Source: Goekera deserti
GTDB taxonomy: Bacteria > Actinomycetota > Actinomycetes > Mycobacteriales > Geodermatophilaceae
Assembly: GCF_010685995.1 (NCBI RefSeq)
Contig: NZ_JAAGWK010000028.1
Coordinates: 1 to 64,000, forward strand
DNA: 64,000 bases
Reading direction: 5' to 3'
The notes beneath the pieces are model-generated. The model made no database searches, was not told the origin of the DNA, and saw only the letters and a program-made list of their open reading frames with translations. The translations under genes were made by a program, and so were the position numbers. Below are positions 1,179 to 12,062 of the stretch, piece after piece (the first letter of the stretch is position 1; every line of letters begins with the position of its first letter).

Positions 1179-2606
1179 GTGGCTCACGTCGGCAACCGAC
1201 CCGAGGGGAAGCCGTTCGTCCTGATCGGCTATGGCGTCGCGCTCGCCGGGTCCGTCGCCCTCTGGGGCGCCGACGCCACGTTCGGCGTGGTGGCCGGTGC
1301 GCTGAACGTGGTCTTCGCCGTCTACTTCTGCCGACACCTCGCGTTCGCGATCGCGGCCTCGCGCTGGGCGGACGGGGACCTGCACGCCGCCGACGTCGGG
1401 TTCGACACCTACACGCCGGCGGTCGCGGTCCTGGTCGGGTGCAAGAACGAGGCGCTCGTCGTCGACGGGATGGTCGCTGCGCTGCTCGAGCTGGACTACC
1501 CGGCCGAGCAGTTGACCCTCGTGGTCGTCGACGACGGCTCGGACGACGGGACCGGGGAGCGGCTCGACGTCTGGGCGGCCCGGGAGCCCCGTCTGCGCGT
1601 CCTGCACCGGCCGCCGGGCTCGGCGGGTGGCAAGTCCGGTGCGCTCAACGACGCACTGGCGCTCGTCGACGGCGAGATCGTGGTGGTCTTCGACGCCGAC
1701 CACGAGCCGGAGGCGACGACCATCCGACGCCTGGTCCGGCACTTCCGTGACCCGGCCACCGGTGCGGTCATGGGTCGCTGCGTCATCCGCAACAGCAAGG
1801 ACTCGCGGATGGCGAACACCGTCTTCCTCGACTACCTGTCCGGCTACCTGGTCAACGAGTACGGCCGCCAGGCGGTCTTCGAGCTGCCGGCGTACGGCGG
1901 GGCCAACTGTGCCGTGCGGATGTCGACCCTGCGGGGGCTCGGCGGCTGGAACCCCGAGACGGTCACCGAGGACACCGACCTCACCCTCCGCGTGCTGCTG
2001 AGCGGTCAGCGCGTGCGGTACGACGTCACCGCGATCGACTTCGAGGAAGCGGTGATCAGTACCCAGCGGTTCTGGAAGCAGCGCTACCGCTGGGCGCGCG
2101 GCCACCAGAAGTGCATGCGGGACTACCTGCTCCCGCTCATGCGCTGCCGGCACCTGACCCTCGTGGAGCGGGCCGAGACAGCGCTGTTCCTCTTCGTCTA
2201 CCACGTCCCGCTGCTGAGTGGGCTGGGCCTGCTGCTGACCGTGCTCCGGGCATTCGGGATCGGCGACCTGCCGGCGGTGGCGGTGCTGCCGCTGTCCATG
2301 CTGCTGTTCATCGGGCCACTCGCCGAGCTGTGCGTCGGACTGCTCATCGGCCGGGTCGAGCGGCGTGCGGCCTGGCAGCTGCTGGGGTTCCTGCCGGCCT
2401 TCGCACTGTCGATCTGGATCACCAGCCGCGCCTACGTCGACGGCATGCTGGGTCGCCCGTACAGCTGGGTCAAGACCTCGCGGTCGGGGTCGGTCTCCAC
2501 GGCCCGCCCGACGCCGCCGGCATCCCAGGACCGGCGAGGAGACGGGACGGGCCGCCCGCGCAGCTTCGCCCACCCCGGTCCGCTGGTCACCCGGGGGGAC
2601 CGGTGA
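1179..2606 (+). CDS. membrane family-2 glycosyltransferase, exosortase operon
   Basis: A 475-residue membrane GT2 enzyme expected to transfer sugar from a nucleotide sugar on the cytoplasmic face. All the hallmarks of the processive cellulose/hyaluronan-synthase-like branch are visible: VVDDGSDDG (Asp118), FDADHE (Asp172, Asp174), TEDTD (Glu264, Asp265) and the QRYRW motif (Gln301-Trp305). Two hydrophobic segments precede the catalytic domain and several follow it (residues about 330-420), and the C-terminal tail is basic and Pro-rich. The GTG at 1179 was chosen because GAGAGGA lies 8 nt upstream; the longer frame from 1116 has no such site. Its stop overlaps the exosortase start by 4 nt. Acceptor and product are unknown, but the neighbours suggest glycan attached to or co-exported with surface proteins. 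Confidence 0.9.
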   Translation: MAHVGNRPEGKPFVLIGYGVALAGSVALWGADATFGVVAGALNVVFAVYFCRHLAFAIAASRWADGDLHAADVGFDTYTPAVAVLVGCKNEALVVDGMVAALLELDYPAEQLTLVVVDDGSDDGTGERLDVWAAREPRLRVLHRPPGSAGGKSGALNDALALVDGEIVVVFDADHEPEATTIRRLVRHFRDPATGAVMGRCVIRNSKDSRMANTVFLDYLSGYLVNEYGRQAVFELPAYGGANCAVRMSTLRGLGGWNPETVTEDTDLTLRVLLSGQRVRYDVTAIDFEEAVISTQRFWKQRYRWARGHQKCMRDYLLPLMRCRHLTLVERAETALFLFVYHVPLLSGLGLLLTVLRAFGIGDLPAVAVLPLSMLLFIGPLAELCVGLLIGRVERRAAWQLLGFLPAFALSIWITSRAYVDGMLGRPYSWVKTSRSGSVSTARPTPPASQDRRGDGTGRPRSFAHPGPLVTRGDR

Positions 2607-3766
2607 GGCGGGTGCTGCGCCCCGGTACCGGCTCGCGTCTCGCCTCGGTGGTCGTGGACCTGCTGATCGCCGCCGCGGTCTGCGTGATCGGCTTCCGGTT
2701 CCTCGCCCTGCCGCTGCAGACCCTGGAGGCGGCGGCCGTGGCCTGGGTCCTGGGGCTGCTGGCGCCCGGGAAGGCGTCCGGCGTCCTGCCGACGCACGTG
2801 CTGCTGTTCCGCGGCGACGGCGAGATCATCGACGCGTTCGTCACCCCGTCCTGCTCGTCGATCCTGTCCGTCCTGGGCCTGTCCGCGCTGACCGCGGTGA
2901 TCCTCCGCCGGCGGCGCCTGCACGCGGTCGCCGGTCTGCTGACCGCGATCGCGGCGCTGCTGGTGCTCAACCACCTGCGCCTGCTGATGTCAGCGCTGGC
3001 CGGCCTGTGGTGGGGCGACGGCGCACTGATCCTCTTCCACGACTGGGTCGGCACGCTGTGGAGTCTCCTGTCCACGCTGCTGGGCTTCCTGCTCCTGGTG
3101 TGGGTGACGCTGCCGTCGCTGGAGCGAGCCGAGCAGGACGTCGACGGCCGTCACACCGCACGCCGTCCGGAGAGCTGGGCCCTGCCCGGGATGGGGTACC
3201 GGCAGGCCGAGGACGGTGCCCGGGCGCGCGCCGGACGCCGCCGTCAGACCCTCGCCGGGTTCCTGCACCGACGCGTGTACCCGCGCCGCCTGTCGGCGTG
3301 GTTGTCCGCGCGCCGCGAGGCAGCCCGCATCGACTACCGCCTGGGGCACCTGTCCGCCGGCGAACGGGCCGAGCGCATCGCGGGCCTGGTCGCCGACGGG
3401 ATCGGGGCGCACGCCGCCACGCTGGTCGCCGTCGCGTCCCTCGACCGCGACCCGGTGGTGCTCGACCGGCTCGCCGACGCCATCGCCGCGCGCCAGTGGG
3501 AACCGGTGACCAACCACCGGGTGGTTGCGCTCCGGCTGTGGGCTCGTGGCTGGCTGATGGCCCGGCCGGCGGTCGAGCAGGAGCGGCGGCCGACCCGCAC
3601 GAGCCTCGCCGAGACGACGATCCGGGTGCCGCGCATCGCCGTCCCACCGCGGACGCCCCCGCCCCGCAGCCCCCCGCCCCCGCAGCCGGAACGCGGATCC
3701 GGCCCCCACCCGATCAGCTTCGCGCGCCCGCCCGCCCCGTCCCCCCACCACGAGGTCCTGCAGTGA
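2603..3766 (+). CDS. exosortase/archaeosortase-superfamily protein with C-terminal extension
   Basis: A 387-residue polytopic membrane protein. Exosortases and archaeosortases are membrane transpeptidase-like enzymes that process C-terminal tripartite sorting signals through an invariant Cys, Arg and His. Here these are Cys84 in TPSCSSIL, Arg126 in LNHLRLL and His146 in FHDWVG, each at the edge of a hydrophobic helix as in the family. The membrane core covers about residues 14-175. After it come roughly 200 residues that are basic, then helical, then very Pro/Arg-rich; ordinary exosortases lack this extension. The start GTG overlaps the glycosyltransferase stop (GTGA) and has a G-rich ribosome site. 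Translational coupling to the glycosyltransferase and to the ATP-grasp gene (another GTGA overlap) argues for one system. The superfamily call is firm on motifs; the subfamily is not assigned. Confidence 0.85.
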   Translation: MRRVLRPGTGSRLASVVVDLLIAAAVCVIGFRFLALPLQTLEAAAVAWVLGLLAPGKASGVLPTHVLLFRGDGEIIDAFVTPSCSSILSVLGLSALTAVILRRRRLHAVAGLLTAIAALLVLNHLRLLMSALAGLWWGDGALILFHDWVGTLWSLLSTLLGFLLLVWVTLPSLERAEQDVDGRHTARRPESWALPGMGYRQAEDGARARAGRRRQTLAGFLHRRVYPRRLSAWLSARREAARIDYRLGHLSAGERAERIAGLVADGIGAHAATLVAVASLDRDPVVLDRLADAIAARQWEPVTNHRVVALRLWARGWLMARPAVEQERRPTRTSLAETTIRVPRIAVPPRTPPPRSPPPPQPERGSGPHPISFARPPAPSPHHEVLQ

Positions 3767-4851
3767 ACTCCTCCCCGCCCCCGCCCCCGGCCACCGGCCA
3801 CCGGACACCCTCGCACGGCCTGCACCACCGGCCCGCCGTGCTCGTCACCGGCGCCGGCGGCCCGGCCGGCATCGCCGTCATCCGCCGGCTGATGGCCCTC
3901 GGGCACCGGGTCGTCGCCGTGGACGCCGACTCCGCCGCCACCGGTGCGGCACTGGCCACCGCCGGGTTCACCGTGCCCCGGGCCGACCACGTGCGGTTCG
4001 TCGACGCGCTGATCGGCGTCGCCGTCGAGCACGACGTCGACGCGCTCATCGGCACCGTCGCCGAGGAGCTCCCCGCCCTGGCGGCCGGTGCCGACCGGCT
4101 CCGCGCCGCCGGCGTCGCCACGTGGCTCCCGGAGACGGCGAGCGTCGAGGTGTGCTGCGACAAGGCGGCCTTCGCGAGGGCGATGCGGGGGGCCGACGTG
4201 GCCCACCCGGCCACCACCGACACAGCGACCGGCCTGGTCTCGGTGCCCGGGCCGTGGGTGGTCAAGCCGAGAGCGGGCCGGGGCAGCCGCGGGGTGCAGC
4301 TGCTGGACAGCCGCGCCGCGGTGGTCGACGCACTGCACCGGGACCCGTCCCTGATCGCCCAGACCCGGCTGACCGGCCGGGAGTTCACCGCCGACACGCT
4401 GGTCGCCCGGGACGGCGAGCTGCTGACGGTGGTGCCCCGCTGGCGGGAGGAGACCAAGGCCGGCATCTCGGTCAAGGGCAGCACGTTCGACTCCGTGGCG
4501 GTCACCGACGTCGTCGCCGGTGCGCTGGCGGCCGTGCGGCTGACCGGGCCGGCCAACGTGCAGGGCTTCGTCGGCGACGACGGTCGGGCCACCGTGGTGG
4601 AGATCAACCCCCGCTTCTCCGGCGGGCTGCCGCTGACGCTCGCAGCCGGTGCGGACGTGGTCAGCGCCCACCTGGCCGGCATCCGGCACCCGGACGCGCC
4701 CCTGCCCCACCTGTGGTTCACCCCCGGCGTGCGCATGCGCCGGTACTTCGCCGAGGTCTTCACCGACGCGGACGGTGTTCCGGTGCCGGACCCGAGCGCG
4801 GTCCTCGCCGTCGGGTCGACCGACCGCGCCGGCGACGAGGTGCCGGCATGA
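3763..4851 (+). CDS. ATP-grasp carboxylate-amine ligase-like enzyme
   Basis: A 362-residue enzyme of the ATP-grasp superfamily (carbamoyl-phosphate-synthase-like), whose members join a carboxylate to an amine or thiol through an acyl phosphate. A Rossmann-like N-terminal domain begins with VLVTGAGGPAGIA at about residue 26. The nucleotide-binding VVKPRAGRGSRG lies near residue 166, and the metal/ATP motif Glu280-Ile-Asn282-Pro-Arg284 is intact. It begins at a GTG overlapping the exosortase stop and ends in an ATGA overlap with the epimerase gene. Similar small ATP-grasp proteins occur in sugar and peptide modification loci, so it may add an amino acid or acyl group to a sugar or peptide. The substrate cannot be told from sequence. 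Confidence 0.85.
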   Translation: MNSSPPPPPATGHRTPSHGLHHRPAVLVTGAGGPAGIAVIRRLMALGHRVVAVDADSAATGAALATAGFTVPRADHVRFVDALIGVAVEHDVDALIGTVAEELPALAAGADRLRAAGVATWLPETASVEVCCDKAAFARAMRGADVAHPATTDTATGLVSVPGPWVVKPRAGRGSRGVQLLDSRAAVVDALHRDPSLIAQTRLTGREFTADTLVARDGELLTVVPRWREETKAGISVKGSTFDSVAVTDVVAGALAAVRLTGPANVQGFVGDDGRATVVEINPRFSGGLPLTLAAGADVVSAHLAGIRHPDAPLPHLWFTPGVRMRRYFAEVFTDADGVPVPDPSAVLAVGSTDRAGDEVPA

Positions 4852-5999
4852 GCCACAGCCGCCACGTCCTCGTGCCCTTCGGCACGCGACCGGAAGTGGT
4901 CAAGCTGGCCCCGGTGGTGGCCGCACTGGTGGCGGCGGGGCACCGCGTCGACGTCGTCGACACCGGTCAGCACACCGACCCCGCGCTGTCCACCCAGCTG
5001 CAGCAGTCGCTGGGCCTCGCCCCCACCTGGCGGTTCGTCATGCCCACCGGTGACCCGGCGGCCCGCACCGGCGCCCTGCACGCCGACGCGTCAGCGGCCG
5101 TTGCCCGCTTCCGGCCGGACGTCGTCCTGGCGCTGGGCGACACGAACACCGTGCCGGCCTACGCCCTGGCCGCGCGCGGCGCAGGCATCCCCTTCGCCCA
5201 CCTGGAGGCCGGCCTGCGCAGCCTGAACCCGCGCAGCGTAGAGGAGGTCAACCGTCGGGTCGCGGCCGCCGTGGCCGCCCTGCACCTGGCCCCGACCCAC
5301 CGTGCCGCCGCGTTCCTGGCCGCCGAGGGCGTCCCGGCCGAGCGGGTGTTCGTGGTGGGCAACCCGGTCATCGACACCCTGGTCGCGCGCGGCGTGCGCC
5401 CGGTCCCGCTCGACCGGCGCCGTGGAGTGCTCGTCACGGCGCACCGGCCGACGAACGTCGACGACCCGGTGCGGCTCGAGCGGCTGGTCGAGGTCGTGTG
5501 CACGCTCGCCGAGCAGGTCGGCCCGGTGACGTTCCCGGTGCACCCGCGCACCGCGGCGCAGCTGACCCGGACCGGGCTCGGTGCCCGGCTGGAGCACCCG
5601 TCCATCGTGCTGACCGGCCCGATCTCGTACGACGCGCTGCTCGCCGCGCTCGCCGGTTCCCGGCTGGCCGTCACCGACTCCGGCGGGATCCAGGAGGAGG
5701 CGGCCCACCTCGGCGTCCCCGTCGTCGTGCTGCGCGGCTCCACGCCCCGCTGGGAGGGCGTCGAGGCGGGGACCACCACCCTGGCCGGCCTGGCCGACGC
5801 CGGCTCGCCCGGCGCGGTGGTCGCCGCCGCCCTGGCGCACCTCACCCCCCAGGCGCAGGCACACGCAGCGGACGCGCCCTGCCCCTACGGCGACGGGACG
5901 ACCGCCGCCCAGGTGGCAGCGCTGTTCTCGGCCGAGGCCACCGACGGGCTGCTGGCCATGGAGGAGCCGGACTTCACCGACGGCCGGTTGCCCTGGTGA
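4848..5999 (+). CDS. UDP-GlcNAc 2-epimerase homologue (WecB-like)
   Basis: A 383-residue GT-B-fold protein related to non-hydrolysing UDP-N-acetylglucosamine 2-epimerases, which make UDP-ManNAc. Visible family motifs are GTRPEVVKLAP (residues 12-22), LALGDTNT, HLEAGLRS, VEEVNRR and TDSGGIQEEA followed by GVEAGT. One key site differs. The loop that usually reads HR-x-EN near the catalytic His is HRPTN here (His199-Asn203): His and Arg are kept, but Thr replaces the usual Glu. This may mean altered specificity or an epimerase/hydrolase variant. The start ATG overlaps the ATP-grasp stop and its own stop overlaps the HAD gene start. It probably supplies an activated amino sugar to the glycosyltransferase of the same operon; that link is inference. 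Confidence 0.85.
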   Translation: MSHSRHVLVPFGTRPEVVKLAPVVAALVAAGHRVDVVDTGQHTDPALSTQLQQSLGLAPTWRFVMPTGDPAARTGALHADASAAVARFRPDVVLALGDTNTVPAYALAARGAGIPFAHLEAGLRSLNPRSVEEVNRRVAAAVAALHLAPTHRAAAFLAAEGVPAERVFVVGNPVIDTLVARGVRPVPLDRRRGVLVTAHRPTNVDDPVRLERLVEVVCTLAEQVGPVTFPVHPRTAAQLTRTGLGARLEHPSIVLTGPISYDALLAALAGSRLAVTDSGGIQEEAAHLGVPVVVLRGSTPRWEGVEAGTTTLAGLADAGSPGAVVAAALAHLTPQAQAHAADAPCPYGDGTTAAQVAALFSAEATDGLLAMEEPDFTDGRLPW

Positions 6000-6718
6000 A
6001 CGCCACGGCAGCCGACTGGGACGGGCCGCCGCCCCTCGCCGTCGTCGTCGACCTGGACGACACCCTCTACCCGCACGCCGACCACCTGGCCGGCGCCGCC
6101 GCCGCCGTCGCGGCTGCCGCGGCGGCGGCCGGGCTCGACGGGGACCGGGTGCACGCCGCCCTGCGCCGCGAGCTCGCCGCGGGCTCCGACACGGGGGGGA
6201 CGATCGACCGTGCGCTCCTGGCCTCCGGAGTGCCGGCGGGTCGGCTGCCGCAGCTCGTGCCGGGGCTGGTCGCCGCCTTCACGCGCCACGAGCCGGCCGT
6301 CCTGGAACCCCATGCCGGGGTGGTCGACGCGCTGGTGGCGCTCGGGCGGGTGGTCCCGGTCGGCTGCCTGACCGACGGGAACCCGGTGATCCAGGCGGCG
6401 AAGCTGGCCGCCACCGGGCTGGGTCCCCTCCTGCCGGAGGTGCTGGTCACGGACTCCCTCGGTGGACGTCCGACCCGCAAGCCCGCACCCGACGGGCTGG
6501 TCGAGCTCGCCCGACGTCTCGAGGTGCCGGCGCACCGGGTGCTGGTGATCGGGGACCGTCCGGGCAAGGACGTCGCCGTCGCCGCGGCGGTGGGGGCCCG
6601 GGCGATCCGGGTCCGGCAGGGTGAGTACGCCGCGGCCCCGGACGTCCCGCGGGCCTGGGCGACGACGGACTCGTTCCCGGCCGCGACCGTGCTGGCCCTG
6701 ACCGTGATCGACGCCTGA
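5996..6718 (+). CDS. HAD-superfamily phosphatase
   Basis: A 240-residue haloacid-dehalogenase-like hydrolase. Motif I is VVVDLDDTLYP with nucleophile Asp19 and Asp21, motif II is CLTDGNP, motif III is RKPAPDG with the conserved Lys, and motif IV is GDRPGKDVA. The cap lies between motifs I and II, as in subclass I. The GTG start overlaps the epimerase stop by 4 nt. In this operon a sugar- or sugar-phosphate phosphatase role is plausible. An Ala-rich stretch at residues 33-45 is a low-complexity insertion in the cap. Confidence 0.85.
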   Translation: MNATAADWDGPPPLAVVVDLDDTLYPHADHLAGAAAAVAAAAAAAGLDGDRVHAALRRELAAGSDTGGTIDRALLASGVPAGRLPQLVPGLVAAFTRHEPAVLEPHAGVVDALVALGRVVPVGCLTDGNPVIQAAKLAATGLGPLLPEVLVTDSLGGRPTRKPAPDGLVELARRLEVPAHRVLVIGDRPGKDVAVAAAVGARAIRVRQGEYAAAPDVPRAWATTDSFPAATVLALTVIDA

Positions 6719-6841
6719 CCGTCGTCGACGCCGGACCCCCGATGGGGTGAGGTTCCCACCGCCGACTCCAGGTCGGGACCTGGCGGGCCGATGCACCCCG
6801 TGAGGGGCGGGTGGACCGCCCGACGAAGGTGGGGTCTGTCG

Positions 6842-7405
6842 ATGGTGACCAACGTGTTCCCGGACGGTCGGCGGCGCACGCGTGCGCGCCTGGCCAGGCT
6901 GGTGGCTGTGCCCGCGGTCGCCGCGGTGGCCGTGCTGGTCACCCCCGGGACGGCCTCGGCCTACGCACCCGACCCGGTCCAGCCGCAGGTGACCTGCATC
7001 GTCCCGGTGGCGGACGGCTACTGGACGGCGGTGTTCGGGTACACGAACCGGACCCTCACCGTCCAGCAGGAGCCCATCGGTCCGGACAACGACTTCGATC
7101 CCGACAAGTACAACGGCGCACAGCCCACCACCTTCCAGCCGGGCGTCCACCAGGGCGCGATCTCGATCCGCGTGCCGGCCAACGAGCGTCTGGTCAAGTG
7201 GGAGATCTACGCCTCGTCGGCGACCGCCTCCCGGGAGACCAGCCCGGCCTGCCCCGCACCGACGCAGATGCCGGCCGAGGGCAACGGCACCGGCGCCGCG
7301 ATCGGCGTGGTCGCCGCCGGGGCGGTGGGCGGGGTGGTGCTGCTGCGCACCCGGCGCCGGCTGGAGCGCGCGGCCGTGTCCGGCCCGACCCCTGCGGGAG
7401 CCTGA
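6842..7405 (+). CDS. secreted protein with C-terminal membrane tail, candidate exosortase substrate
   Basis: A 187-residue protein I cannot match to a named family. Residues 1-40 form a signal peptide: an Arg-rich start, a hydrophobic core VAVPAVAAVAVLV, and a TASA cleavage site before Tyr41. The mature part has Cys52 and Cys137, which could pair, and aromatic/Thr-rich beta-like sequence. The C-terminus is tripartite: a short PAEGNGT segment, a Gly/Ala/Val helix at 151-168, then a basic RTRRR cluster and a 14-residue tail. This is the general architecture of exosortase or sortase targets, though no canonical PEP or LPXTG motif is present. The ATG at 6842 was chosen because the signal peptide begins there and GAAGGTGGGG lies about 9 nt upstream. 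It sits between the HAD and PIG-L genes, so it is the best local substrate candidate. Confidence 0.75.
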   Translation: MVTNVFPDGRRRTRARLARLVAVPAVAAVAVLVTPGTASAYAPDPVQPQVTCIVPVADGYWTAVFGYTNRTLTVQQEPIGPDNDFDPDKYNGAQPTTFQPGVHQGAISIRVPANERLVKWEIYASSATASRETSPACPAPTQMPAEGNGTGAAIGVVAAGAVGGVVLLRTRRRLERAAVSGPTPAGA

Positions 7406-7406
7406 G

Positions 7407-8204
7407 GTGACCTCCCGCTGGCAGCGGACTCGCCCGGGCGACCAGGACAACCTGGCCGACCGGCGGCGTGAGCCCGGCACGGACGGCGCGGGTCGGCCGG
7501 GGATCAGCGTGCTGGCGATCGGGTCGCACCCCGACGACATCGAGCTCGGCTGTGGCGGCGCCCTGCTGGCGCACGCCGCCGCCGGTGACCGGGTGACGAT
7601 GCTGGTGCTGACCGGTGGCGAGAACGGCCCGGACGGCGGTCGTGGTCACGTGCGGCGGGTGGAGCAGGAGCGCGCGGCCGCACTGATGGGTGCCGAGCTG
7701 GTGTGGGGCGGGCTGCAGGACTGCCAGGTGGTGCCCGACTCGGCCACCGTCCGCGTGGTCGAGCAGACCCTGCAGGCCGTGCAGGCCGACCTTGTCTACG
7801 TACACGCACCCGACGACAGCCACCAGGACCACCGTGCCGTGGCCTCGGCCACGCTGGGTGCCGCGCGCCGGCTGCCGCGGGTCCTGCACTACCAGAGCCC
7901 GTCGACCCTGTCGTTCAACCCGACCGTGTTCGTCGACGTGACCGCGCACGTCGGCGGCAAGGTCGCCGCGCTCGCCTGCCATGCCTCGCAGGTGGAGATG
8001 TCGGCGATGGTGGAGCCCGACGCGGTCGTGGCTTCGGCCCGGCACTGGGGTGCCCAGGCCCGCATCGGCTACGCCGAGGCGTTCCAGCCGACCCGGATGG
8101 TGCTGGACCTCTCGCCGGTGCGCCGCACCCCCGCCGAGACGCCAGCACTGGCCGACCTGCCTGCTGCCTGGGCGCTGGTGCCCGCCTCCCTCGGCGCCCG
8201 CTGA
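7407..8204 (+). CDS. PIG-L/LmbE-family N-deacetylase
   Basis: A 265-residue member of the zinc-dependent PIG-L family, which removes acetyl groups from GlcNAc-containing glycans, glycolipids or small thiol precursors such as those of mycothiol. The metal motif SHPDDIE is at residues 40-46 (His41, Asp44), and a second metal site DSHQDH lies near residue 137. The first ~30 residues are a polar, basic leader outside the domain. The GTG start lies 1 nt past the stop of the secreted-protein gene, with GGGAGCCTGAGG just upstream. Last in the exosortase operon, it may deacetylate the sugar built by the glycosyltransferase. It could instead be a mycothiol-type deacetylase, but no other mycothiol gene is nearby. 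Confidence 0.85.
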   Translation: MTSRWQRTRPGDQDNLADRRREPGTDGAGRPGISVLAIGSHPDDIELGCGGALLAHAAAGDRVTMLVLTGGENGPDGGRGHVRRVEQERAAALMGAELVWGGLQDCQVVPDSATVRVVEQTLQAVQADLVYVHAPDDSHQDHRAVASATLGAARRLPRVLHYQSPSTLSFNPTVFVDVTAHVGGKVAALACHASQVEMSAMVEPDAVVASARHWGAQARIGYAEAFQPTRMVLDLSPVRRTPAETPALADLPAAWALVPASLGAR

Positions 8205-8291
8205 CCGACGGGGCTGGCCGGGGGCGGCAACAGGACCGTCACACGGGCCGGTTACGGTCCGGGCTCCGCTGACGGTCGGAGGTCGAGGGCG

Positions 8292-8594
8292 TTGCACCTG
8301 TCACCACACGAGCAGGAACGCCTGCTCCTCAGCTACGCCGCCGAGCTCGCCCGGCGGCGGCAGTCGCGCGGTCTGAAGCTGAACCTGCCCGAGGCGACGG
8401 CGATCGTGACCGACCACGTGCTGGAGGGCGCGCGGGACGGCGTGCGGGTCACCGAGCTCATGCAGTCCGGGCGCACCGTGCTGAGCCGGGACGACGTGAT
8501 GGACGGCGTCCCGGAGCTGCTGGAGGAGGTGCAGGTGGAGGCGACCTTCCCGGACGGGACGAAGCTGGTGACCGTCCACCACCCCATCCCGTGA
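8292..8594 (+). CDS. ureA: urease gamma subunit
   Basis: A 100-residue subunit of nickel urease, which hydrolyses urea to ammonia and carbamate in the cytoplasm. The N-terminus [12 protein letters not shown] and the segment [22 protein letters not shown] are typical of UreA, and the length is the family norm. It begins with TTG preceded by GGAGG at 8278-8282. It is the first gene of ureABCFGD and overlaps ureB by 4 nt. Confidence 0.97.
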
Positions 8595-8929
8595 GCGGCG
8601 GGCTGGACGGTCGGGACGTGCCCGTGGTGCCGGGCGAGGTGCTGCCCGCGCAGGCCGAGGGCATCGAGACGCTGCCCGGGGTGCCCCGGGTCCGGCTCGA
8701 GGTGCACAACGCCGGCGACCGGCCGGTGCAGGTCGGCTCGCACTTCCACTTCGCGCAGGTCAACGCGGCGCTGCGGTTCGACCGTTCGGCCGCGCACGGG
8801 CACCGGCTGGACATCGCGGCCGGCACCGCCGTCCGCTTCGAACCGGGCATCGGGCGTTCGGTCGACCTGGTGCCGCTGGGTGGCGCGCGCGTCGTCCCCG
8901 GGCTGACCGCCGAGGGAGGGCTGGGCTGA
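8591..8929 (+). CDS. ureB: urease beta subunit
   Basis: A 112-residue UreB. It contains PGEVLPAQ near the start, the signature [19 protein letters not shown], and [14 protein letters not shown] followed by DLVPLGG, all conserved in urease beta subunits. The GTG start overlaps the ureA stop (GTGA) and the stop overlaps the ureC ATG by one base. The three structural genes are therefore tightly coupled. Confidence 0.97.
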
Positions 8930-10650
8930 TGGTCCGGTTGAGTCGTGAGCGCTACGCCCAGCTGTACGGGCCGACGGTGGGCGACCGGGTGCGCCTGGCC
9001 GACACCGACCTGCTGATCGAGGTCACCGAGGACCGCTGCGGCGGCCCGGGGCGGGCCGGCGAGGAGGCCGTGTTCGGCGGCGGCAAGGTGATCCGCGAGT
9101 CGATGGGGCAGGGGCGGGCCACCCGCGCCGAGGGTGCTCCCGACCTGGTGATCACCGGTGCCGTGGTGCTCGACCACTGGGGGGTGGTCAAGGCCGACGT
9201 CGGCATCCGGGACGGGCGCATCGTGGCCCTGGGCAAGGCCGGCAACCCGGACACGATGGACGGCGTGCACCCCGACCTGGTGATCGGGCCCGGCACCGAG
9301 GTGCTGGCCGGCAACGGCAAGGTCCTCACCGCCGGCGGCATCGACTGCCACGTGCACTTCATCTGCCCGCAGATCGTGCCCACCGCGCTCGGCGCCGGGA
9401 TGACCACGCTGATCGGTGGCGGTACCGGGCCGGCCGAGGGGTCGAAGGCCACCACGATCACCCCGGGCGACTGGTACCTGGCCCGGATGCTCGAGGCGAT
9501 GGACGGCATGCCGGTCAACGTCGCGCTGCTCGGCAAGGGCAACACCGTGTCGCAGGAGTCGATGGAGGAGCAGCTGCGGGCCGGGGCCAGCGGCTTCAAG
9601 CTGCACGAGGACTGGGGGTCCACGCCCGCGGCGATCGACGCGTGCCTCACCGTCGCCGGCCGGCACGGCGTCCCGGTGGCGCTGCACTCGGACACGCTGA
9701 ACGAGGCCGGGTTCGTCGAGGACACCCTCGCCGCGATCGGTGGCCGGAGCATCCACGCGTACCACACCGAGGGAGCCGGGGGCGGGCACGCGCCCGACAT
9801 CATCACCGTCGCCGGGCACCCGAACGTACTGCCCAGCAGCACGAACCCGACCCGACCGCACACCGTGAACACCCTCGACGAGCACCTCGACATGCTGATG
9901 GTCTGCCACCACCTCGACAGCTCGGTGCCCGAGGACCTCGCCTTCGCCGAGAGCCGGATCCGCCCCACCACGATCGCGGCCGAGGACCTGCTGCACGACC
10001 TGGGCGCCATCTCGATGATCGGCTCCGACGCCCAGGCCATGGGCCGGGTCGGTGAGGTGGTGATGCGCACCTGGCAGACGGCGCACGTGATGAAGCGCCG
10101 CCGCGGGTCGCTGACCGGCGACGGCGCGGCGGACAACCTGCGGGCCCGCCGGTACGTCGCCAAGTACACGATCTGCCCGGCCGTCGCGCACGGCATCGAC
10201 GCCGAGGTCGGCTCGGTGGAACCGGGCAAGCTGGCCGACCTGGTGCTCTGGGACCCGGCGCTGTTCGGCGTCCGGCCGCACGTGGTGCTCAAGGGCGGGA
10301 TGATCGCCTGGGGCCAGATGGGCGACGCGAACGCCTCCATCCCCACCCCGCAGCCGGTGTTCCCGCGGCCGATGTTCGGCGCGTTCGGGCGGGTGCCCGC
10401 GCAGACGTCGCTGTACTTCGTGGCGCCGGCCGCGATCGACGCGGGGCTGGCCGACCGGCTGGCGGTGGACCGGCGGCTGGTCGCGGTCACCGACACCACC
10501 CGGCTGGGCAAGGCGGACATGCCAGAGAACACGGCGCTGCCGGAGATCCGGGTCGACCCGGACACCTTCACGGTGTCCGTCGACGGCGACGTCTGGGAAC
10601 CCGAGCCGGTCAGCGAGCTGCCCATGGCCCAGCGCTACTTCCTGTTCTGA
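8929..10650 (+). CDS. ureC: urease alpha (catalytic) subunit
   Basis: A 573-residue catalytic subunit with the normal length and motif order. Nickel ligands are recognisable: His141 and His143 in GGIDCHVHF, the carbamylated Lys224 in GFKLHEDWG, the His in [10 protein letters not shown], the His in [11 protein letters not shown] and the Asp in [10 protein letters not shown]. The flap with its active-site Cys-His is present as VCHHLD. Nothing suggests inactivation. The accessory genes ureF, ureG and ureD follow directly; ureE is absent, which is common in actinobacterial urease operons. Confidence 0.98.
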
Positions 10651-10657
10651 GCCGGCC

Positions 10658-11380
10658 GTGTCGCTCACCGCGCTGCTCGCCCTCGCCGACTCCCGGCTGC
10701 CCGCGGGTGGCCACGCGCACTCCGGCGGGGTGGAGCAGGCGATCAGCGCCGGGCTGGTGACCGACCCCGTCTCGCTGGCCGGCTTCCTGCGCCGGCGGGT
10801 GGGCACGGCCGGATCGGTCGCGGCCGGGCTCGCGGCGGCTGCCTGCGCCGTGGTGGGCCGTGCCGTGGGGGGCGGGGCCGTTGCGGCGGGTGCTGCCGTG
10901 CCGCCGTCGGTGGCGGCCGCCCTGGCCGACCTGGACGCGGAGGCCGACGCCCGGACCCCGTCCCCGGCGCAGCGCGCGGCGTCCCGGCAGCAGGGGCGGG
11001 GGCTGCTGCGGGTGGGCCGGCGGGCCTGGCCGCACCCGGCCTGGGACGCGCTGCCCACGCAACCGCACCACGCCGTGGCGCTCGGGGTGGCCGCCGCGGC
11101 TGCCGGCGCCCGTCCGGCCGACGCGGCGGCCGCAGCCGCCTACCTGTCGATGAGCGGTCCGGCCACCGCCGCCCAGCGGCTGCTGGCCCTGGACCCGATC
11201 ACCGTGGCCGCGGTGACCGCCCGGCTGTCGCCGCTGGTCGACGAGGTCGCCGGCGCCGCCGCCCGGGCCGCCGCGGGCCCGTTCGGCGGCCTGGACCTGC
11301 TGCCCGCGTCCGCCGACCCGCTGCTCGACCTGCTCGCCGAACTGCACGTCTCCCGGAAGGACCGGTTCTTTGCCTCCTGA
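10658..11380 (+). CDS. ureF: urease accessory protein UreF
   Basis: A 240-residue UreF, which acts with UreD and UreG in GTP-dependent nickel loading of the apo-urease. The N-terminal [23 protein letters not shown] is the family signature (usually SPALPIGGFSYSxGLE), and the central region is Ala-rich and helical as expected. It starts with GTG 7 nt after ureC and its 3' end overlaps ureG by 11 nt. Confidence 0.92.
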
Positions 11381-12062
11381 CCACGACCTGGACGACTACG
11401 TCGACCCCTACGACCCCGGGCAGCGCCGCGCCCCGGACGGCGGCCCGGGCGCACTCCGGGTGGGCATCGGCGGGCCGGTCGGCTCCGGCAAGACCGCGCT
11501 GGTGGCCGCGCTGTGCCGCACGCTCGGCGAGGAGCTCGACCTCGTCGTGGTCACCAACGACATCTACACCACCGAGGACGCCGACTTCCTGCGGCGCAAC
11601 GCCGTGCTGCCCGACGACCGGATCGAGGCGGTGCAGACCGGCTGCTGCCCGCACACCGCGATCCGGGACGACATCACCGCCAACCTGGACGCCGTCGAGC
11701 TGCTGGAGGCCCGGCACCCCGGCGTCCAGCTGGTGCTGGTGGAGTCCGGCGGGGACAACCTGACCGCGTCGTTCAGCTACGGGCTGGTCGACGTGCAGGT
11801 GTTCGTCGTCGACGTCGCCGGTGGGGACAAGGTGCCGCGCAAGGGCGGGCCAGGGGTGACCAGCGCCGATCTGCTGGTGGTCAACAAGACCGACCTGGCG
11901 CCGTTCGTCGGCGCCGACCTCGACGTCATGCGCCGGGACTCCGACGCCGTGCGCGGAGAGAAGCCGACGCTGCTGATCTCGCTGCGCGAGGACCCGGCGG
12001 CGACCGACGTCGCGGCGTGGGTGCGGGCGCAGGTGCGCTCCCGGGCCCTGCAGTCGGCATGA
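11370..12062 (+). CDS. ureG: urease accessory GTPase UreG
   Basis: A 230-residue SIMIBI-class GTPase that delivers nickel to urease. The P-loop GPVGSGKT is at residues 35-42, preceded by [21 protein letters not shown], the nickel-binding TGCCPH (usually GCPH), [16 protein letters not shown] and NKTDLAP are all present. The N-terminus is a short acidic and Asp/Tyr-rich leader rather than a His-rich one. The TTG start lies inside the end of ureF and is preceded by GGAAGGA. Confidence 0.95.

Follow-up and report, generated by a model that had tools for sequence, protein, structure and literature searches.

A predicted exosortase operon of Geodermatophilaceae with its own candidate glycan acceptor pathway

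Introduction

The compound to which exosortases attach their substrates is still described as unidentified (PMC7468200). We report here on an operon that may encode both an exosortase and the synthesis of such a compound. It consists of seven + strand genes at positions 1179-8204 of a 64,000-nucleotide stretch of Goekera deserti (Geodermatophilaceae; contig NZ_JAAGWK010000028.1, positions 1 to 64,000), called the window below. Besides an exosortase-superfamily protein and a secreted protein with a tripartite tail, these genes encode a glycosyltransferase of family 2 (GT2), an ATP-grasp ligase, a UDP-GlcNAc 2-epimerase, a HAD phosphatase and a PIG-L deacetylase. PIG-L, GT2, exosortase and ATP-grasp form a constant core, present in 49 genomes of five actinobacterial families.

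The closest described systems are the XrtS (NF033767), XrtR and XrtP types, which share with the window a short Cys/Arg/His core, GT2 and WecB-type epimerase neighbours, and secreted proteins with tripartite tails. The window exosortase falls below the cut-offs of all three models, however, and XrtS-like loci are devoid of PIG-L, ATP-grasp and a HEAT-type domain (the XrtS neighbourhood was compared through such XrtS-like loci, as no locus above the XrtS cut-off was found). No relevant paper on XrtS, XrtP or XrtR was found in the open-licence literature. XrtG and its GT2 partner (TIGR03110/TIGR03111, Firmicutes) also place an exosortase next to a GT2 gene, but the window GT2 scores 59.5 bits against a cut-off of 364 for the partner model. 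We know of no ATP-grasp/PIG-L module in the XrtG system. In PEP-CTERM/EpsH systems the exosortase is accompanied by a deacetylase and by an enzyme that may transfer an amino acid. There, these are a polysaccharide deacetylase and a FemAB/VimA-like protein, whereas here they are the non-homologous PIG-L and ATP-grasp; moreover, the window host is Gram-positive and the tail lacks the Pro-Glu-Pro signature, its motif being P-x-x-[GA]-N-G.

Two more remote systems are of use for comparison. In the type IX secretion system (T9SS), synthesis of the linking sugar is proposed to involve the deacetylase VimE, followed by aminoacyl transfer by VimA (families given as carbohydrate esterase 4 and N-acetyltransferase-like), and the same authors speculated on an amino acid-modified sugar acceptor for exosortase systems (PMC7468200). 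This Wbp/Vim pathway resembles the operon in having an epimerase, in deacetylation before aminoacylation, and in the joining of a protein C-terminus to a sugar. The sorting enzyme and the enzyme families are different, PIG-L and ATP-grasp standing in place of VimE and VimA homologues, and the likeness is one of logic only. Archaeosortase A (ArtA) of Haloferax belongs to the same superfamily; it has a Cys nucleophile (Cys173, proposed to form a thioester) and a proposed amine acceptor, archaetidylethanolamine (PMC7157517). That proposed acceptor is a phospholipid, in contrast, and the system has no glycan operon of the window kind.

Results

Families were assigned with Pfam and NCBIfam hidden Markov models (HMM), NCBIfam scores being read against curated cut-offs. 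The operon comprises the following features.

1179-2606, + strand: GT2 membrane glycosyltransferase, 475 amino acids (PF00535, PF13641 by HMM)
2603-3766, + strand: exosortase-superfamily protein, 387 amino acids, with a membrane core (1-172) and a HEAT-type domain (~217-319) (TIGR04178 above cut-off, alignment, model)
2852-2854, + strand: codon of Cys84, the predicted nucleophile (invariant in the exosortase alignment)
2978-2980 and 3038-3040, + strand: codons of Arg126 and His146 (invariant in the same alignment)
3251-3559, + strand: predicted HEAT-type cytosolic domain of the exosortase (fusion comparison; pLDDT, the predicted local distance difference test, ~93)
3763-4851, + strand: ATP-grasp ligase, 362 amino acids (PF15632, PF02655, PylC-like N by HMM)
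4848-5999, + strand: non-hydrolysing UDP-GlcNAc 2-epimerase (WecB type), 383 amino acids (TIGR00236)
5996-6718, + strand: HAD-family phosphatase, 240 amino acids (PF00702; motifs)
6842-7405, + strand: secreted beta-sandwich protein, 187 amino acids, the predicted exosortase substrate (signal peptide, model, family alignment)
7250-7288, + strand: signature motif CPAPTQMPAEGNG, residues 137-149 of the secreted protein (tail alignment)
7301-7378, + strand: tail membrane helix and beginning of the basic end, residues 154-179 (model, alignment)
7407-8204, + strand: PIG-L family N-deacetylase, 265 amino acids (PF02585)

An earlier note, written from the window sequence, had proposed such a gene set and suggested a search for its co-occurrence in other actinobacteria; the idea survived that search. 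Among 115 Geodermatophilaceae genomes, 39 contain a close exosortase. GT2 (E ≤ 1e-60) and PIG-L (>300 bits) orthologues were found in precisely those 39 and in none of the 76 others. The ATP-grasp orthologue (>150 bits, at least 67% identity) was detected in 38 of the 39, again with none in the 76; in the remaining genome, G334, the contig stops inside the ATP-grasp gene and only its start is seen. GT2, ATP-grasp and PIG-L are thus inherited all-or-none with the exosortase (Fisher p ~1e-31, kinship between genomes being ignored). By coordinates, PIG-L lies at most ~7 kb from the exosortase in 38 of the 39, the contig of G404 ending between the two. The order GT2-exosortase-ATP-grasp-epimerase-HAD was identical in all 14 named relatives (Geodermatophilus, Blastococcus, Modestobacter, Trujillonella, Klenkia), and the secreted protein and PIG-L came next in 13 of the 13 whose contig was long enough; in five loci (L056-L060) PIG-L is directly upstream of GT2 instead. 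The distribution is patchy, 7 of the 12 genera of the family having the operon, which makes several joint gains or losses likely.

Beyond Geodermatophilaceae, an exosortase-core profile run on 396 genomes of the phylum retrieved G230 and G189, with six more genomes in the family of G230, and a search with the XrtS model added two loci, in G648 and G654. Here too the expected co-occurrence was observed: the four core genes are adjacent in all ten loci, which belong to four further families, with PIG-L placed either upstream of GT2 or between this gene and the exosortase. The locus is not a chance assembly, since gene content and order are conserved in all family loci examined, and five actinobacterial families retain the core.

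In the window, the seven open reading frames are all present on one strand as first described, and HMM matches supported their families. Four 4-nucleotide overlaps chain the first five genes, from GT2 to HAD; the secreted-protein gene follows after 123 nucleotides, and PIG-L 1 nucleotide further. The operon is flanked by a 5S rRNA gene (186-302) and a urease operon (from 8292), and a GC-content scan showed no sharp island at the locus. As a side observation, five genomes of one genus (G404-G408) have PIG-L as a tandem pair at the operon, mostly alongside extra secreted-protein copies.

We then compared the operon with other exosortase loci. Exosortase-superfamily genes above cut-off were found in 19 of the 396 phylum genomes, most of them adjoining a GT2 gene and some an epimerase; the window, G189 and G230 excepted, no recognisable PIG-L or ATP-grasp gene stood beside the exosortase. 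Likewise, a distant exosortase type present in three further Geodermatophilaceae genomes, and as a second copy in one of the 39, is accompanied by GT2 and mostly by an epimerase, with no PIG-L or ATP-grasp match at these loci. In five XrtS-like loci (L143-L147, 55-95 bits with the XrtS model), GT2 and epimerase genes accompany secreted proteins that bear tripartite tails; PIG-L, ATP-grasp and the HEAT-type domain are all absent. As the XrtS-like loci keep GT2 and epimerase without PIG-L and ATP-grasp, the amine module appears to form a distinct block. GT2 with epimerase is a general theme of actinobacterial exosortase loci, and PIG-L, ATP-grasp and the HEAT-type domain are a specific addition, which makes up the distinctive part of the operon.

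The exosortase itself scores 36.0 bits with the superfamily model TIGR04178 (cut-off 23), and Cys84, Arg126 and His146, the three residues singled out by the earlier note, were invariant in an alignment of 20 homologues (L014, out of frame past the exosortase core, was excluded from the full-length alignment). Its best specific NCBIfam match is XrtS, with 50.8 bits for a cut-off of 145, and the relatives in L002, L063, L049 and L050 score 35-47 bits with this model. Scores with XrtR (21.5 bits, cut-off 150) and XrtP (NF012139; 10.7 bits, cut-off 200) are lower still. Judged by these scores, it is a predicted superfamily member outside every named type tested. One could argue that the operon is nevertheless an ordinary XrtS-type locus, already covered by existing families, given that XrtS is the best specific match and that GT2 and epimerase also occur in XrtS-like loci. 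Scores this far under the cut-off in five loci, and the absence of PIG-L, ATP-grasp and HEAT-type domain from five same-class XrtS-like loci, make this improbable. The structural model shows a helical core, but its predicted template modelling score is just 0.40 and no fold claim is drawn from it; neither a fold search of this model against the PDB (E ≤ 0.001) nor a search of the exosortase profile against PDB sequences gave a match. Separately, one genus of Geodermatophilaceae was seen to have an additional, distant exosortase accompanied by a GT2 of its own (L051-L054, in G376, G378, G371 and G373), the L052 exosortase being nearest to XrtP (58 bits, cut-off 200).

The initial assignment of this protein to the exosortase superfamily holds, with one correction: it is a fusion, the core being followed by the HEAT-type domain, which is helical in the predicted model. 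All Geodermatophilaceae loci have this domain on the exosortase, except L014 and L058 (broken frames or gaps). In seven of the outside genomes it is fused instead to the front of the ATP-grasp enzyme, in frame and with no stop (L049, L132-L135, L148, L149), and in two it is a separate membrane-anchored protein (L050, L130), which in L050 matches HEAT_2 at 1.4e-5, slightly below the gathering score. The domain was not found in L131. Such a domain swap is a classical sign of joint action, and suggests that the exosortase and the ATP-grasp ligase work together; it is an independent genomic argument. We also noted, in one Geodermatophilus genome (L011, 8013-10145), exosortase, HEAT and ATP-grasp in a single open frame, which is either a triple fusion or a sequencing error and was not used as evidence.

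The secreted protein has a signal peptide (residues 1-40, ending ..GTASA) and the tripartite tail first reported for it, namely a motif, a membrane helix and a basic end. The predicted model comprises a beta-sandwich (residues 45-137, pLDDT ~97), then a helix (154-179) followed by the basic end; a fold search against the PDB gave no match at E ≤ 0.001. The tail reads Cys, then P-x-x-[GA]-N-G, and the C, P, N and G residues were invariant in 23 tails from 19 loci. The motif had a mean pairwise identity of 63%, compared to 40% for the body and 41% for the helix. Strong matches to a tail profile (>48 bits) were obtained in 38 of the 39 exosortase-positive and 0 of the 76 negative genomes, the profile having been built from a subset of these genomes; weaker matches elsewhere span mostly the helix and basic part. 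These data bear on whether the tail might be an ordinary sortase signal (LPXTG- or LAXTG-like), the exosortase acting elsewhere. The tripartite shape is identical and the L008 tail reads LPATG, but Thr precedes Gly in this 1 tail of 23, the subsequent N-G is invariant, and tail and exosortase are co-distributed. We hold a sortase signal to be very improbable and rejected it.

The term 'single-substrate' used at first is close to correct: one protein family is concerned, with 1-4 paralogues per genome, some of them unlinked to the operon. In L061 (13601-14650), a second substrate, encoded at the operon, has an F5/8 type C domain added ahead of the usual body and tail. A distant family member adjoins the operon in L149, and other secreted proteins with tripartite tails do so in L049, L050, L130 and L134. 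The system is dedicated in the sense of Haft and Varghese (PMC3237569), or close to that.

The glycan-building enzymes appear intact. GT2 has the motifs FDAD171, TED263 and QRYRW301, is related to cellulose synthase, and is nearest to PgaC/IcaA (TIGR03937) at 121 bits, for a cut-off of 422. ATP-grasp has the conserved residues K168, E280, N282 and R284, the epimerase scores 233 bits with TIGR00236 (cut-off 210), and HAD has DLDDT19, K162 and GD186. The HPDD and HQDH motifs of PIG-L are intact; its nearest solved relatives are TT1542, diacetylchitobiose deacetylase and BshB1, and it scores 95 bits with the BshB1 model (cut-off 182.5) and 20.6 with MshB (TIGR03445, cut-off 224). As no signal peptide was seen on PIG-L, ATP-grasp, epimerase or HAD, these enzymes should act on cytosolic precursors. 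Together, an epimerase, an N-deacetylase, an ATP-dependent ligase and a GT2 fit an amino sugar that would be deacetylated, then amidated.

PIG-L deacetylation followed by amino acid ligation is known from mycothiol (MshB, MshC) and bacillithiol (BshB, BshC) synthesis, a precedent for such a sugar. The same logic, and the BshB1 score, could mean that ATP-grasp and PIG-L synthesise a thiol- or antibiotic-like small molecule and merely share the operon. We give this little credence: linkage to the exosortase persists over five families and several gene orders, and extends to domain fusions.

Discussion

Our favoured explanation, held with about even confidence, is that the operon encodes a dedicated exosortase system carrying its own acceptor pathway, the surface protein being anchored to a modified sugar that the operon makes. 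From the sequences we infer cleavage, transfer, and which sugar steps occur and in what order, as follows. The beta-sandwich protein would be exported via its signal peptide, and its tail would keep it in the membrane. UDP-ManNAc would be provided in the cytosol by the epimerase; there, PIG-L would strip the N-acetyl group from the sugar, ATP-grasp would couple the freed amine to an amino acid or another carboxylate, and the HAD enzyme would take off a phosphate. GT2 would attach the sugar to a lipid or to a chain under elongation and carry the product across the membrane. The exosortase would cut near P-x-x-[GA]-N-G, Cys84 forming a thioester with the assistance of Arg126 and His146, and hand the C-terminus formed by the cut to an amine of the glycan or glycolipid. 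By keeping ligase and exosortase together, the HEAT domain may couple acceptor synthesis to transfer at one membrane site. The proposed transfer of the secreted protein to the operon-made glycan is, in our opinion, plausible and well motivated.

Several observations weigh against this explanation. Epimerase and HAD were found in just 5 of the 10 outside loci (L050, L130, L131, L148, L149). The XrtS-like and further actinobacterial exosortase loci manage without the PIG-L/ATP-grasp pair, meaning that exosortases have no general need of an aminoacyl sugar. The unlinked strong tail matches (L074-L082, L084) have the same body, and the tail has not yet been seen on unrelated bodies. It is also possible that ATP-grasp adds a carbamoyl or other acyl group instead. 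Finally, an exosortase-less cluster was found in L068 (G309, 7248-11542) and L069 (G296, 7308-11596). It has, in a row, a response-regulator/PIG-L fusion, an ATP-grasp (~41% identical to that of the window), a PHP-domain phosphatase and a GT2, and lies near camelysin/TasA-like and signal-peptidase-like genes, with no exosortase match; a PIG-L/ATP-grasp pair of this kind recurs in ~17 genomes of that genus. This paralogous cluster indicates that the PIG-L/ATP-grasp module can serve glycan making alone.

Such a cluster, of the same logic and adjoining TasA/camelysin-like genes, leads to the closest competitor. The exosortase would merely trim or release the protein, while GT2, epimerase, PIG-L and ATP-grasp would build a substituted polysaccharide of amino sugars, with which the protein associates without a covalent bond. 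The QxxRW motif of GT2, with its PgaC/IcaA and cellulose synthase kinship, agrees with polysaccharide synthesis, and the F5/8 type C domain of one substrate has a fold that is often sugar-binding. It leaves unexplained, however, the all-or-none inheritance with the exosortase and the swap of the HEAT domain between exosortase and ATP-grasp, and we consider it rather unlikely.

If the anchoring explanation is taken one step further, the operon could be a self-contained bacterial counterpart of glycosylphosphatidylinositol anchoring. HEAT-coupled exosortase and ATP-grasp would make a glycolipid whose hexosamine is N-deacetylated and aminoacylated, and would join it to a dedicated surface protein at the C-terminus, with the acceptor pathway complete beside the exosortase. 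This proposal is tentative, and we regard it as somewhat less likely than not. The combination of ATP-grasp and PIG-L was not recognised as described in the earlier note, and in agreement with this we found no paper describing PIG-L, ATP-grasp and HEAT with an exosortase in the open-licence literature, most subscription journals being outside it.

The sorting enzyme, its predicted substrate and a candidate pathway to the acceptor are encoded in one compact operon, whose actinobacterial hosts include culturable genera, among them Geodermatophilus and Blastococcus. Because all parts co-occur or are all absent across genomes, the acceptor of an exosortase class becomes directly testable.

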